Part shown: positions 2,739-24,773 of the stretch, piece after piece
How positions within the stretch are numbered: the stretch's first letter is position 1
Layout: every line of letters starts with the position of its first letter
The notes under the pieces: generated by a model
The model's database searches: none
What the model saw: the letters and a program-made list of their open reading frames with translations, nothing else
Told to the model about the DNA's origin: nothing
DNA from: a virus
IMG/VR virus record: IMGVR_UViG_3300018481_000014
Location: 1 to 24,773 of that record
Strand: one strand, 5' to 3'
DNA length: 24,773 nt
Translations under genes and position numbers: made by a program

Positions 2739-4987
2739 TCTTTGTTAAAAATCCGCTGGCGCTGGCGGCCCGACCCGAGGCCATGCCGGTGGCGCCAGGG
2801 ACGCGCCCGTATGACTGGCTCAAGGAACGTTACCCCGAGGGCTGCGGCGGCCCGGTGCGCCACATTCACAACGGCGTCGAAATCCCCGAGGACGCCGACG
2901 ACTGGCTCGAGCGGCCGGTGATGGCCGGCGAGTGTTGCGTGCTGGCCGTCGCGCCGGCCGGCATCGAAGTCGCGCTGACCACCATTCTGATCACCGCGCT
3001 GGTGACGGCCGTTGTGTCGGCCGCCGTGTCGATCGGCCTGTCGCTGCTGTTTCCCGACCCGACCGCGGCGGCCGGAACGACGCCCAGCGTCAACGCGCAG
3101 AGCCCGGTTTACAGCGTGCGGTCGAGGCAGAACCTCGCGAGATTAGGCGAGCCGGTTCCGGTGGTTTACGGCAACGTCCTGATGACGCCCGACCTTTGCG
3201 CGGCGCCCTACAATATGTTCACCGATGGCCAGCGTGCCATGCACGTCGATTTGCTGCTGTGCCTGGGTCATGGGTTTTTCGCCGTCCATGAGGTGCTGGT
3301 CGGTGAGACTGAAACCTCATCCATGACCGGCGCCCAATGGATACAGGTCACGCCCAACGACCACGGTGGCCAGTTTGGCCACCTTGGCCCGATCGCCGCG
3401 GCCAACGGCTGGTCGCCCGGCTTTATTGAAAACGCCTATTCGAGCCTGGAGGTGGGCGAGCAACGCTTTACCAATGCCGGCGACGTAAGCGGCTATTTCC
3501 GCGTCGGCCGCGCCGGCGTTAGCATCGGCCAGTATCTCTACGTCAACATTGAATGGCCTCGCGGCCTCTATCAGATGAACGACTGGGGCGACGTGGTGAC
3601 GACGCACGTTGACTGGAACGTTCACGTTGTCGAGGCCGACATTGACGGCAACCCGGTCGGCGCCGAGCAGGTGTTCCCCTTCACGGCCAACAATGGACAG
3701 AACGTCGACCCGCTGCGGCGGACCTATCAGATCAACTGCGGCCGGCCGGCGGCGTGGCTGGTCAAGTTGCAGCGCGTCACCGTGCAGTTTCCCAACGGCA
3801 ATGAATTCAATGAATTCTACTGGCGCTCGCTCACCCTGGAATGCGGTCACAACCAGTCGACGGCCTACGGCGCCGTGACGCTGCTGATGGTGCGCCTGAA
3901 GGCCGAACAGGTCGCCTCGACCGCCGAGCGCCTGGTGCGCGTCCGTTGCACGCGGCTGCTGTCACCGATGGGCAATCCGGTCAATCCGCTGGCGCCGACG
4001 GCGAGCCCCGCTGACGCTTTCATCGACATTATGGTGAACCCGACCTACGGCGCCGGCCGGCCGCTGGAAGAAGTCGACTACAATCAGATCGCCCTGCTGC
4101 GGACCTACTGGCTGCCCTATGAATTCAATGGCGCCTACACACAAAAGACGACCGTATGGCAGGCGCTCACCCAAACGGTGCAGGGCGTCGCCGCCGCGCC
4201 GCTGCCGATCGGCGGACTAATGAGTGTGGCCCAGGACGGCCTGCGGCCGGCGCGCTCGATGATGTTTTCCGAGCAGAACATCGTCCGCGGTTCGTTCAAG
4301 CTCAGTTACCATTTCGAGCAGACCGGCGCGCCCGACGGTGTCGAGATCGAATACGTCGAACCCTACACCTGGACGCCGGCTTACCAACGCTGGCCGTTGG
4401 CCAGCGTGTCGCCGGAACGGATGAACCTATTTGGTTGTTCGAGCCCACAGCAGGCGGCGCAATTCGCCCGCCTGCAATGGCAGCGCCGGCAAATGCTGCG
4501 GCGCCTGGTCGAATTCTCGACCGAGTTGGAGGGGCTGATACCGCATCCGGCCGAGCGTATTGCCGTGGCCCATACCCTGCCGCGCTGGGGGGTGTCCGGA
4601 TATGTCGCCCTGGTCGACGGGCTGGAACTCATGCTTGACCGGGTGCTGCCATGGGATGAGGTGGCCGGCCCTTATTACATGATGTTTCGCAACGAGCATT
4701 CGGGCGCGTCAAACGTGGTCGAGGTGGTGCAGGGCTGGAACGGCCCGCACTGGGTCACGCTGACCGCGACACCGTGGGGACCGGAGGGCGGCTGGGTCAT
4801 CGGCCAGCGCCAGGAGGGTACGCACTTCACCTGGGGCGACGGCGAGCGCGTGGTAAAAGACTTCACCCTGACCGCGCTGGCGCCCAAGGGCGGCCAGGGG
4901 GCGACGACGGTCGACATCAGCGGCGTGGTCTATGACCCGGATGTGTATTTCGGCACGCTGGCCCATCTGCAATTTCCGGTGCCGTGA
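2720..4987 (+). CDS. TipJ-like tail tip / host-specificity protein with fused gpI-like N-terminus
   Basis: This 755-aa protein is the central tip protein, expected to form the tail tip and help choose the receptor. The first ~85 residues look like the beta-grasp (gpI-like) domain fused to TipJ proteins (FVKNPL near the start, then GECCVLAVAPAG). A hydrophobic segment follows (ALTTILITALVTAVVSAAVS). The conserved TipJ block comes next (SVRSRQNLARLGEPVPVVYG, then LLLCLGHGFFAVHEVLVGET). The C-terminal half is beta-rich tip sequence with no obvious fibronectin repeats. I chose the GTG at 2720 because GGAG lies seven bases upstream; an upstream ATG at 2645 would give a basic extension inside the NlpC gene. 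An ATG at 2783 is a weaker alternative. Confidence 0.85.
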   Translation: MALASIVFVKNPLALAARPEAMPVAPGTRPYDWLKERYPEGCGGPVRHIHNGVEIPEDADDWLERPVMAGECCVLAVAPAGIEVALTTILITALVTAVVSAAVSIGLSLLFPDPTAAAGTTPSVNAQSPVYSVRSRQNLARLGEPVPVVYGNVLMTPDLCAAPYNMFTDGQRAMHVDLLLCLGHGFFAVHEVLVGETETSSMTGAQWIQVTPNDHGGQFGHLGPIAAANGWSPGFIENAYSSLEVGEQRFTNAGDVSGYFRVGRAGVSIGQYLYVNIEWPRGLYQMNDWGDVVTTHVDWNVHVVEADIDGNPVGAEQVFPFTANNGQNVDPLRRTYQINCGRPAAWLVKLQRVTVQFPNGNEFNEFYWRSLTLECGHNQSTAYGAVTLLMVRLKAEQVASTAERLVRVRCTRLLSPMGNPVNPLAPTASPADAFIDIMVNPTYGAGRPLEEVDYNQIALLRTYWLPYEFNGAYTQKTTVWQALTQTVQGVAAAPLPIGGLMSVAQDGLRPARSMMFSEQNIVRGSFKLSYHFEQTGAPDGVEIEYVEPYTWTPAYQRWPLASVSPERMNLFGCSSPQQAAQFARLQWQRRQMLRRLVEFSTELEGLIPHPAERIAVAHTLPRWGVSGYVALVDGLELMLDRVLPWDEVAGPYYMMFRNEHSGASNVVEVVQGWNGPHWVTLTATPWGPEGGWVIGQRQEGTHFTWGDGERVVKDFTLTALAPKGGQGATTVDISGVVYDPDVYFGTLAHLQFPVP

Positions 4988-12291: not shown

Positions 12292-12475
12292 CGCTTCTCG
12301 TCGCTTCGCTTCGCAGCTCACCGCAGCTCGCCGCTTCTCTGCGCTTCTCCCCGCGGCTCACCGCAACGCAACGCCCTAGACTCGACTAAACAAGGTTAGT
12401 ACTCTCCCTGTTCCTCGCTTCTCTCCTCGTCGCCTCTCACCGCTTCGCTTCTCCGCTCATCGCATCGCACCGCTG
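12292..12475. repeat. Degenerate pentamer array 1 (C-K-C-N-N units)
   Basis: From 12292 to 12376 there are 17 consecutive pentamers that all fit C-(G/T)-C-N-N in one phase (cgctt, ctcgt, cgctt, cgctt, cgcag, ctcac and so on). A 39-bp break follows (12377-12415), including an AT-rich part with the inverted repeat ACTAA-ACAAGG-TTAGT at 12385-12400. Twelve more units run from 12416 to 12475 in a different phase, up to the AAAGG Shine-Dalgarno of the gene at 12488. The last two positions of each unit vary freely. This is the main content of the 200-bp gap 12288-12487. A period of 5 is incompatible with coding. Confidence 0.9.
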
Positions 12476-12487
12476 AAAGGACACCCC

Positions 12488-13075
12488 ATGAAACGGGTAA
12501 CGATTTTTATTGAGGGTATTGCGCCATATTCCGCCTCGCGTGGAACCGACGACAACCCCCGCGCCGACCGCGAAACCCACGAGGACTACGACCAGCGGAT
12601 ATGGCGCGAGAAGGCCAACGTCACGCCTGAGGGCAAAGTCTGCATCCCCGCCATGGCGTTTAAACAGGCGATGGATACGACGGCCTACAAGCTGGGTGAA
12701 AAGGTGCCCAACCGGCGCGGCGCCACCTTTAAGAACTTCTTTGTATCCGGCCTGATATGCGAGGCCGACGCCGTGCTGCACGTCAACGGCAAGATATTGA
12801 CCCGCGCCGACGCCGAGCCGGTGACGATTTCCGCGAATTCAGACGGCGTGCGCGGTTCCGGCAAGCGCGTTCCGCGGACGTTTCCAGTGTTTCGGAAATG
12901 GGAATGCGAAGTTGTGATGATTGTCACAGACGACATCCTCACCCAAGCCATCATCGAACAGCACGCCCGCGCCGCTGGTATCGTGGCCGGCGTCGGCCGG
13001 TTCCGCCCCGAGAAGGGCGGCCCCAATGGACGCTTCCGCGTGAAGAAGTTTGCGTGGGAGGATTTCAAGCTCTGA
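12488..13075 (+). CDS. Conserved phage protein of unknown function (195 aa)
   Basis: This 195-aa protein has the layout I associate with a widespread uncharacterised phage family. The parts are a first strand ending in a Tyr-Ser motif (TIFIEGIAPYSASR), an acidic YDQRIWREKANVT block, and PEGKVCIPAMAFKQAMDTTA. A glycine/basic loop follows (VRGSGKRVPRTFPVF), then a C-terminal GVGRFRPEKGGPNGRFRV loop. Alternating strands with a Gly-rich terminal loop faintly recall RAMP/Cas7-type folds, but I see no catalytic residues and make no such claim. AAAGGA lies upstream at the end of pentamer array 1, and array 2 begins five bases after the stop. The flanking arrays suggest that it binds nucleic acid; that is inference. 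Confidence 0.7.
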   Translation: MKRVTIFIEGIAPYSASRGTDDNPRADRETHEDYDQRIWREKANVTPEGKVCIPAMAFKQAMDTTAYKLGEKVPNRRGATFKNFFVSGLICEADAVLHVNGKILTRADAEPVTISANSDGVRGSGKRVPRTFPVFRKWECEVVMIVTDDILTQAIIEQHARAAGIVAGVGRFRPEKGGPNGRFRVKKFAWEDFKL

Positions 13076-13079
13076 CCGC

Positions 13080-13359
13080 CGCACCGCACCGCTTCGCGCC
13101 GCCCCGCGGCGCTACTCGCCTCGCCTCGACGCAGCTCCCCGCAGCGCTGCGCCTCGCCCCGCAGCGCTGCGCGCCGCATCTCAACGCAACGCATCGCATC
13201 GCAACGCGCCACTGCTCTCCGCACCTCACCTCATCGCAACTCACCGCAACGCCGCTCACCGCGACGCCGCTCACCTCATCGCCACTCCCCGCGGCGCAAC
13301 GCTTCGCAGCTCACCGCTCCGCGCCTCTCCGCTTCGCAACGCAACGCCCCACGACACCT
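13080..13359. repeat. Degenerate pentamer array 2 (54 phased C-K-C-N-N units)
   Basis: From 13080 to 13349 the sequence splits into 54 consecutive pentamers with no slip: 38 are CGCNN, 15 are CTCNN and one is CACNN. Two further CAC units (cacga, cacct) extend it to 13359. Positions 4 and 5 are nearly unconstrained. The last three full units (cgcaa, cgcaa, cgccc) also end the first block of array 1. The array fills nearly all of the 301-bp gap between two genes and ends at the AAAGGG Shine-Dalgarno of the gene at 13377. The long open frames across it in several directions arise only because the repeat rarely allows stop codons. Confidence 0.95.
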
Positions 13360-13376: not shown

Positions 13377-13886
13377 ATGCCGCTATTTGTCCGCGCCGAA
13401 ACGACCGACCGCCTTATCCGGTATCTTGCTGCATTCGACAAGGGCACGACTGTCACCTATGGCGACCTGTCCAAAACGCTCGGCGCCCCGGTTACGTCTA
13501 GAACCTCCGCTTTGCGCAGTGCCCGGATTGCCCTGCAAAAAGAGCACGCCCAGGTATGGCACGCCGAGCCCGGCGTCGGTGTGCGGCGCCTGACCGATCC
13601 GCAGATGGCCGAGCTTACGTGGTGGCTGCGCGGCGCCAGGGGCAAGCTCAATCGCGGCCGCAACCAGGGGAGCGTTGCCGATGTGGCGGTCCTGCCGGCC
13701 GACCAGCAAGTGCGCTTTGCGATTCAGAACGTCCAGGCCGAGTTGGCCTTGCAGGCGTTGGCGCGACCGACCGCAACGCGCCTGGCCAAGACGGTGCGCG
13801 GCAATGCCAACGACCTGCCGGCATTCAATATGGTGGAGTGGGCGATTACACTGATGGCGCCGCCTAAAAAGCGGCAGAAGGCATGA
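13377..13886 (+). CDS. Winged-helix DNA-binding protein
   Basis: This 169-aa protein has an N-terminal winged helix, residues ~8-72. Helices are in TTDRLIRYLAAFDKG, VTYGDLSKTLGA and SRTSALRSARIALQKEH. A beta wing (AQVWHAEPGVGVRRLT) then ends the domain. The rest is helical and basic (WWLRGARGKLNRGRNQG; ending MAPPKKRQKA). It could be a transcriptional regulator of the late genes that follow, or an architectural protein acting on the adjacent array. The ATG at 13377 is preceded by CTGAAAGGGA, nearly the same as the leader of the 12488 gene, so the two may be translated under a shared control. No sensor domain is seen. Confidence 0.65.
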   Translation: MPLFVRAETTDRLIRYLAAFDKGTTVTYGDLSKTLGAPVTSRTSALRSARIALQKEHAQVWHAEPGVGVRRLTDPQMAELTWWLRGARGKLNRGRNQGSVADVAVLPADQQVRFAIQNVQAELALQALARPTATRLAKTVRGNANDLPAFNMVEWAITLMAPPKKRQKA

Positions 13887-24094: not shown

Positions 24095-24773
24095 TGGCAA
24101 ACTTTAGCGACCTTGTCGTTAAGCTGGAGCTGCAACAGGCGGCGTTCAACAAGGGCATGGACGACGCGGCCAAGCGGATGGCCCGCGTCCAGCAATCGGC
24201 CAGGCAAGCGCAATCCGGCCTGGCCAGCCTGGAAAACGGCATGAAGGGTGTGGCCCAGGCGGCGGCGGCGGCCGGCGCGGCGTTTGGCACGTTCAAGGGC
24301 GTCCAGGCCATCACCAAGGCGGCCGACGAAGTTCGCAACCTACAGGGCAGCTTCACCGCACTTCTGGGCAGCTCCGAGCGCGCCAGCGACATGATGCTGC
24401 GCGTATTCAACGTGATCGACCGCACCGGCGCGCCGCTGGAGGCCGTCGCCGGCGCGACGCAACGACTGGCGATCGCCATGACGGCTATGGGCGCCAGCAA
24501 CGCCCAAATCGAAACTCTCGCAGAAACCTTTATCAAACTTGGCAAGGTTGGCGGCGCGAGCGCGGCCGAGACGGCGGCCGGCCTGCAACAGCTTGGCCAG
24601 GCGCTCGCCAGCGGCAAGCTGGGCGGCGACGAACTCAAGAGCATTCGCGAGAATGCGCCGCTGGTCGCAGAAGCGATCGCCCAGGGCATGGGCGTTACGA
24701 CCGGCAAACTGAAAGAGCTGGGCGAGCAAGGCAAGCTGACCAGTGATGTCGTCGGTAACGCGCTGATCGCCGC
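24094..24773 (+). CDS. Phage tail tape measure protein, N-terminal part (continues at 1)
   Basis: This is the 5' part of the 714-aa tape-measure protein whose remainder is at 1-1588. It opens in a TGATG overlap with the gp10-like gene. Residues ~1-60 form a helical start (LVVKLELQQAAFNKGMDDAA, with coiled-coil spacing). The conserved tape-measure N-terminal domain follows (KAADEVRNLQGSFTALLGSS; GQALASGKLGGDELKSIREN at the join). This domain is found just ahead of the coiled-coil rod in lambda-like tape measures. The frame is continuous through the terminal repeat. Confidence 0.93.
   Translation, partial: MANFSDLVVKLELQQAAFNKGMDDAAKRMARVQQSARQAQSGLASLENGMKGVAQAAAAAGAAFGTFKGVQAITKAADEVRNLQGSFTALLGSSERASDMMLRVFNVIDRTGAPLEAVAGATQRLAIAMTAMGASNAQIETLAETFIKLGKVGGASAAETAAGLQQLGQALASGKLGGDELKSIRENAPLVAEAIAQGMGVTTGKLKELGEQGKLTSDVVGNALIA
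24651..24773. repeat. Terminal direct repeat, right copy (circular closure)
   Basis: This block is identical to 1-123. Removing one copy gives the 24,650-bp circle and restores the intact tape-measure gene. Confidence 0.95.

Follow-up and report, generated by a model that had tools for sequence, protein, structure and literature searches.

Phased pentamer arrays beside a Vipr homologue in an environmental viral genome: probable guide RNAs with a C-N-C scaffold triplet

Background

What is encoded by a long run of five-nucleotide units in which two positions never change and two are close to random? The question was raised by IMG/VR virus record IMGVR_UViG_3300018481_000014 (24,773 nucleotides, hereafter the window). 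A sequence-only reading had noticed the run and had proposed for it a terminase packaging site, a nucleation site for a protein filament with a 5-nt footprint, or a leader-RNA element of the downstream gene at 13377. The window is the whole record and its two ends repeat each other. Positions 1-120 and 24650-24773 encode the same stretch of a tape-measure-like gene (a direct repeat of about 120 bp), and the genome is therefore terminally redundant or circular, with a length of about 24.65 kb.

The sequence-only reading had found no named element of this form. That was true before April 2026, when a preprint gave such elements the name vrRNAs (PMC13142463); it was the sole paper found in a literature search on VIPR. 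According to this preprint, VIPR (Viral Interference Programmable Repeat) is a CRISPR-related weapon of phages against rival phages, made up of a phage RAMP protein and vrRNAs. The latter consist of 9-16 pentamers, each with a fixed GGY and a guide dinucleotide NN. The vrRNA tracts carry a conserved 3′ tail. Two bases of the target are read per unit and one is passed over, mostly the codon wobble base. Other VIPR loci are among the targets, besides rival phages, satellites and prophages, and the effect is transcriptional repression. The same source describes seven types, with GGY/NN "or a related consensus", and places the systems of phage SUSP1 and of a P. fulva prophage in type II (PMC13142463).

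Structure of the arrays

The run at 13080-13359 on the plus strand (array A3) consists of 56 C-N-C-N-N units in phase, with zero slips. As had been reported from the sequence, the 54 successive units up to 13349 are all C-K-C-N-N bar one C-A-C unit (13210). The run extends beyond them through two final C-A-C units that reach 13359, so that C-K-C units make up 53 of the 56, and two shorter tracts lie on the same strand upstream of gene 12488 (12292-12376 and 12416-12475). Positions 1 and 3 are C in all units, and position 2 is G in 38, T in 15 and A in 3. The earlier suggestion of selection on three of every five bases is borne out. Positions 4 and 5 had been called nearly random, and 15 of the 16 dinucleotides are indeed present (AA and AC most frequently); what that description missed is their meaning, which we take to be that of guide letters. 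The order of units showed no strong tandem copying, lag 3 alone being nominal (p=0.02). Together with the linkage to one protein family described below, this upholds the earlier view that simple slippage was unlikely. Runs of at least five units were not found elsewhere on either strand of the window, and an unbiased period-5 scan scored 4.8 and 5.2 in the flanks of gene 12488, with a maximum of 2.2 in the rest. The A3 pattern is neither chance nor simple slippage.

The features of the locus are as follows.

12292..12376, plus strand: vrRNA-like tract A1, 17 C-K-C-N-N units, 14 of them variable and followed by a cap
12362-12376, plus strand: A1 cap, CGCAA CGCAA CGCCC (cap rule drawn from 590 tracts)
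12377..12405, plus strand: A1-A2 spacer with a weak hairpin (ACTAA/TTAGT), a possible 3′ tail
12416..12475, plus strand: vrRNA-like tract A2, 12 C-K-C-N-N units without an AA-AA cap, just upstream of vipr
12488..13075, plus strand: vipr, encoding a 195-aa Cas7/RAMP-like protein
13080..13359, plus strand: vrRNA-like array A3, 56 C-N-C-N-N units
13180-13189 and 13335-13349, plus strand: A3 AA-AA caps, the latter (CGCAACGCAACGCCC) with the same letters as the A1 cap
13377..13886, plus strand: vap candidate, a predicted 169-aa winged-helix-like protein

The caps follow a rule seen across relatives. In about half of 590 tracts the last two units were CGCAA-like (NN = AA), and neighbouring AA-AA units were observed 512 times, versus 267 ± 13 in shuffles. 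Tracts ending in AA-AA were mostly 9-17 units long, near the 9-16 of the preprint (PMC13142463), and the vrRNA ends would fall near CGCAACGCAA caps. Of the window's tracts, A1 has 17 units, A2 has 12 and A3 has 56, compared with 9-16 in published vrRNAs. A3 ends with the 15 letters of the A1 cap, followed by its two C-A-C units, and because there is a second AA-AA pair within it (13180-13189) it probably holds at least two guides.

Folding did not reveal a tail in the window. The A1 spacer was not more stable than shuffles (z = +0.7 to +1.5), giving no significant tail, and A3 RNA folded no better than shuffles, again with no evident tail. A search of 12 sources found no hammerhead or other Rfam RNA between tracts, and no sigma-70-like promoter was found for the window arrays. 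In two relatives, L011 and L094, conserved hairpins separate the tracts. A long conserved hairpin follows each tract there, e.g. CTCTCGAC..GGCATCCAG/CTGGATGCC..GTCGAGAG, with both arms changed. It had no Rfam match and is likely to be the vrRNA tail of those subgroups.

The vipr gene and its neighbour

A profile of the 12488 family matched one sequence in the PDB, 36pp, annotated as "SUSP1 Vipr protein" (E=3.3e-9). All 48 family members matched phrog_4652, to which the Vipr of SUSP1 and the related proteins of LESphi2 and LittleE were also assigned. The AlphaFold2 model of the 12488 protein had a pLDDT of 96, and Foldseek matched this model to Csm3/Cas7 proteins, which form the backbone of CRISPR complexes of type VII and type III (E about 1e-7). 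The family alignment contained the invariant G-rich motifs GIGRFRPE..G..GRF. On the evidence of sequence profiles and the predicted fold, the product of gene 12488 is a Vipr RAMP, with an RRM core and a G-rich loop, homologous to SUSP1 Vipr. A tblastn search of INPHARED with 12488 and 13377 gave no match, and neither did PADLOC for these two genes; the divergent family member L079, used as a query, recovered SUSP1-like phages. A tree built from 90 Vipr proteins placed the window within a 22-member CGC group (100/100) and set the three GGY phages apart, on a long branch (100/100).

The 13377 protein gave a weak match to the MGMT DNA-binding domain, and its AlphaFold2 model (pLDDT 85) gave weak winged-helix matches. 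Homologues were present at 90 loci, at 82 of them downstream of vipr. We suggest that 13377 is a candidate vipr-accessory gene, with a putative DNA-interaction fold that resembles a winged helix in the model.

Association of arrays and genes

Viral contigs were scanned with a DNA pattern of 11 C-K-C units, and 125 loci were examined among the matches listed. Diverse C-K-C arrays were present at 96 of these. Again among the matches listed, a 12488 homologue was encoded at 71 of the 96, usually adjacent to the array and in the same orientation, and at none of the 29 loci with simple or no diverse repeats; at many of the 25 diverse-array loci without the gene, the array stood at the edge of the DNA examined. 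Sampling was then reversed, with 89 loci drawn by protein alone and searched within 900 nt by a period-5 scan that assumed no letters (score at least 3.0). An array lay beside the gene at 86 of the 89 loci, compared with 3 of 262 control windows taken at a distance; of the three array-less loci, two were truncated by the contig end. The check proposed from the sequence, a joint occurrence of arrays with 12488 or 13377 homologues, was positive for both genes.

The consensus on the gene strand was C-N-C-N-N, mostly CGC, with CTC, CAC or CRC at some loci. A GGC triplet was found in the 12488 group at L143 only, a locus from a deltaproteobacterial MAG; it fell within the C-N-C side of the Vipr tree, though its placement is unsure. 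In SUSP1, LESphi2 and LittleE, which encode phrog_4652 proteins, GGC/GGT-NN arrays were found on the vipr strand. At L147 the best period-5 motif in the 900 nt upstream of vipr, read on the gene strand, was G-Y-G-N-N; it may be an array that runs the opposite way.

Targets of the guides

The code was examined in relatives by comparing the guides of all loci with 1.2 Mb, later 2.1 Mb, of locus DNA. The first pass, against 1.2 Mb, gave nothing clearly above controls. Raw scores were swamped by low-complexity repeats, and a complexity filter was therefore needed. After filtering, a skip of one nucleotide gave 8 matches scoring at least 18 and 4 scoring at least 20 in the 2.1 Mb, compared with at most 3 and none, respectively, for skips of 0, 2, 3 and 4. 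Since codon structure favours a skip of one, individual cases weigh more than these counts.

One such case is the guide of locus L180, which matched 25 of 26 letters in locus L036. The match is antisense, in the helicase gene directly after vipr, and the skipped base is codon position 3. L180's own copy of the gene was a worse match to its guide (about 20/26, by reading). From its sequence we take the gene after vipr in L036 and L180 (1463-2224 in the latter) to be an SNF2-like helicase. The L180 guide thus appears to target the helicase gene of a rival VIPR locus. As a separate observation on these genes, the helicase ORF of L036 (minus strand) appears to read in frame through a pentamer-like stretch, with the protein ...AALRVATPRIAARHTATQRFDQ..., and the L180 gene is cut short at an array.

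The second case came from locus L134 of Paracoccus litorisediminis, the guide tract of which was searched in 125 Paracoccus genomes. Six matches were found, versus one for a backward control. In two genomes the guide matched 22 of 22 letters over 11 units and skipped every wobble base, on the sense strand of a gene that, from its protein, is presumably a GpA-like TerL; a third match was at 20/22. The 22-letter pattern also occurred in 24 viral contigs. Each of them encodes the peptide DPLIERVTLVK within a TerL-like ORF, and the target was spelled in 23 different synonymous ways. These contigs are homologous and were therefore counted as one event. With four 18-letter patterns taken from the window, viral contigs gave 1, 1, 0 and 0 matches, from which about 0.002 chance matches are expected for 22 letters. 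Near its C-N-C VIPR, L134 carries genes for ParA, FtsK-like proteins and DNA methyltransferase; it may be a plasmid-like element, and elements of that kind may therefore also carry C-N-C VIPR.

Of four guides tested from named genomes, this was the one for which a target was found. The Devosia guides gave no target, and the other Paracoccus guide tested gave a single match with 3 mismatches, which we put down to chance. In L107 the guide of an array at 3677-3761 (minus-strand coordinates) matched the 3′ end of its own vipr gene at 22/24 with a one-nucleotide skip, possibly by autoregulation or by chance. For the relatives L134 and L180, the matches suggest that the NN bases specify DNA targets with a one-nucleotide skip.

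For the window's own A1 and A3 guides, no convincing target was found in IMG/VR and 385 alphaproteobacterial genomes, using central nine-unit patterns and eleven-unit patterns with mismatches. The single matches of the 18-letter patterns look like chance. L223 was rejected, as its match was confined to the nine units searched. In L224, one A3 guide matched over the nine units and part of the flanking letters (about 23/26), and the match keeps the reading frame of an ORF of 564 aa. It is suggestive, yet within chance and unproven.

Comparison with known systems

The closest system is VIPR of SUSP1 and P. fulva. The likeness includes a Cas7-like Vipr of about 195 aa in the same PHROG family, arrays of a triplet plus NN on the vipr strand and on both sides of vipr, and a small accessory gene. 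In the relatives studied here it extends to reading with a one-nucleotide skip over the wobble base and to targets in rival mobile elements. The locus differs in its triplet, which is C-N-C (mostly CGC/CTC) and not the published GGY. Tract ends are marked by CGCAA repeats, and A3 is a single run of 56 units. SUSP1 vap1 belongs to phrog_5926, whereas the accessory gene here is in a different PHROG situation. The hosts of the group also differ, those named for 12488 homologues being mainly alphaproteobacteria.

The Cas7 proteins of class 1 CRISPR systems (Csm3, backbones of type III-A and type VII) share the RAMP fold with a G-rich loop, and their subunits tile a guide RNA at a short period, with base pairing broken at intervals. 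Unlike them, the locus has one small protein, 5-nt units and a gapped code, and sequence identity is about 15%. CRISPR direct repeats, spacers and further cas genes were not seen at the locus. A more distant parallel is TRAP, the trp RNA-binding attenuation protein, which binds KAGNN repeats, each a fixed triplet and two free bases, with one subunit per unit and thus a period of 5. TRAP, however, is an unrelated ring protein used for attenuation, and its free bases carry no target information.

Interpretation and alternatives

Because gene 12488 is a Vipr homologue and arrays adjoin such genes, we consider it very likely, from homology and by analogy with the published system, that A1-A3 encode VIPR guide RNAs (vrRNAs) with the scaffold triplet C-N-C. 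The arrays would be transcribed together with the adjoining genes. Vipr would then coat the RNA with one subunit on each pentamer, gripping C-N-C and leaving the two variable bases exposed. Through these dinucleotides the guide would base-pair with double-stranded DNA at two of every three target bases, the third being skipped. The complex, perhaps assisted by the winged-helix-like protein 13377, would repress the gene to which it binds in a rival, whether phage, prophage or VIPR system. Of the earlier proposals, the protein with a 5-nt footprint comes closest; the best reading of it would be a RAMP/Cas7-like protein that oligomerises on RNA. The homology, the association of array, gene and accessory gene, the phase of triplet and NN, the caps and the two natural targets of relatives were computed here; RNA expression, filament assembly, DNA binding and repression would follow by analogy with the preprint (PMC13142463). 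Several points speak against this reading: the window's own guides gave no convincing target in IMG/VR and 385 alphaproteobacterial genomes, one in four of the guides tested from named genomes had a target, A3 exceeds the published vrRNA length and shows no evident tail, the triplet departs from GGY, and the promoter search was negative for sigma-70-like sites.

The strongest alternative, which we nevertheless consider improbable, is that the arrays are mRNA or DNA operators of an autoregulating filament protein that binds single strands. Models of such autoregulation are T4 gp32 and TRAP. The protein would bind the triplets and block translation of its own operon, and the NN bases would carry no information. 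The period of 5, the C-rich strand adjoining a gene for a nucleic-acid-binding protein and the unremarkable folding of A3 fit this explanation, as does the position of the array ends, right ahead of the Shine-Dalgarno-like sites that serve 12488 and 13377. However, the protein is a RAMP homologous to SUSP1 Vipr, and arrays are also present well away from start codons, divided into as many as a dozen tracts that have spacers and caps. The NN bases of one relative, moreover, spell 11 consecutive codons of a rival terminase, which is unexpected for a pure operator. The earlier proposal of a leader element for 13377 is unsupported, since arrays flank vipr on both sides, often as several tracts.

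A packaging (pac/cos) or replication-origin site for a terminase or initiator is hardly tenable. In the window the array does lie between a possible small terminase gene (a weak match) and the TerL gene (15062), but what such arrays constantly accompany, across many unrelated contigs, is vipr together with the winged-helix-like accessory gene, and for this reason the earlier idea of a terminase packaging site found no support. One relative, in addition, is on a plasmid-like element with ParA in Paracoccus, and long, variable, capped arrays are not expected of a pac site. Scarcely any credence can be given to a functionless, degenerating tandem repeat kept by slippage: short CGCAA repeats are present and simple CKCNN repeats occur in other scanned contigs, but positions 1 and 3 are invariant over 56 units beside near-random positions 4 and 5, and the linkage to one protein family is tight (among the matches listed, absent from the 29 loci without diverse arrays).

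If the arrays encode vrRNAs, a further proposal concerns the group as a whole, and here we see about equal weight on either side. It is that Vipr of alphaproteobacterial phages and plasmid-like elements uses a separate dialect of the gapped RNA code, holding C-N-C instead of G-G-Y, with CGCAA guide ends and perhaps with processing of long unbroken arrays, such as the 56 units here, into several or overlapping guides. The dialect and the published GGY systems could then be orthogonal to each other. What sets the locus apart is its triplet, its cap, its long array without breaks and its accessory family. The kind of system was already known, and the C-N-C group may be one of the preprint's seven types ("related consensus", fig. 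S17; PMC13142463).

Implications

On this reading the array is part of the newest class of RNA-guided systems, proposed as an ancestor of CRISPR. The C-N-C group is common in environmental phages and offers hundreds of readable guides. The one-nucleotide skip code would thereby apply to another scaffold triplet as well, on genes that are real targets. The terminase guide of L134 would be blind to synonymous changes, and that of L180 would be directed against the VIPR locus of a rival. Vipr proteins of the C-N-C kind would be small, programmable binders of DNA, perhaps without cross-talk to GGY systems, and comparing C-N-C and GGY Vipr proteins would show which residues read the triplet.
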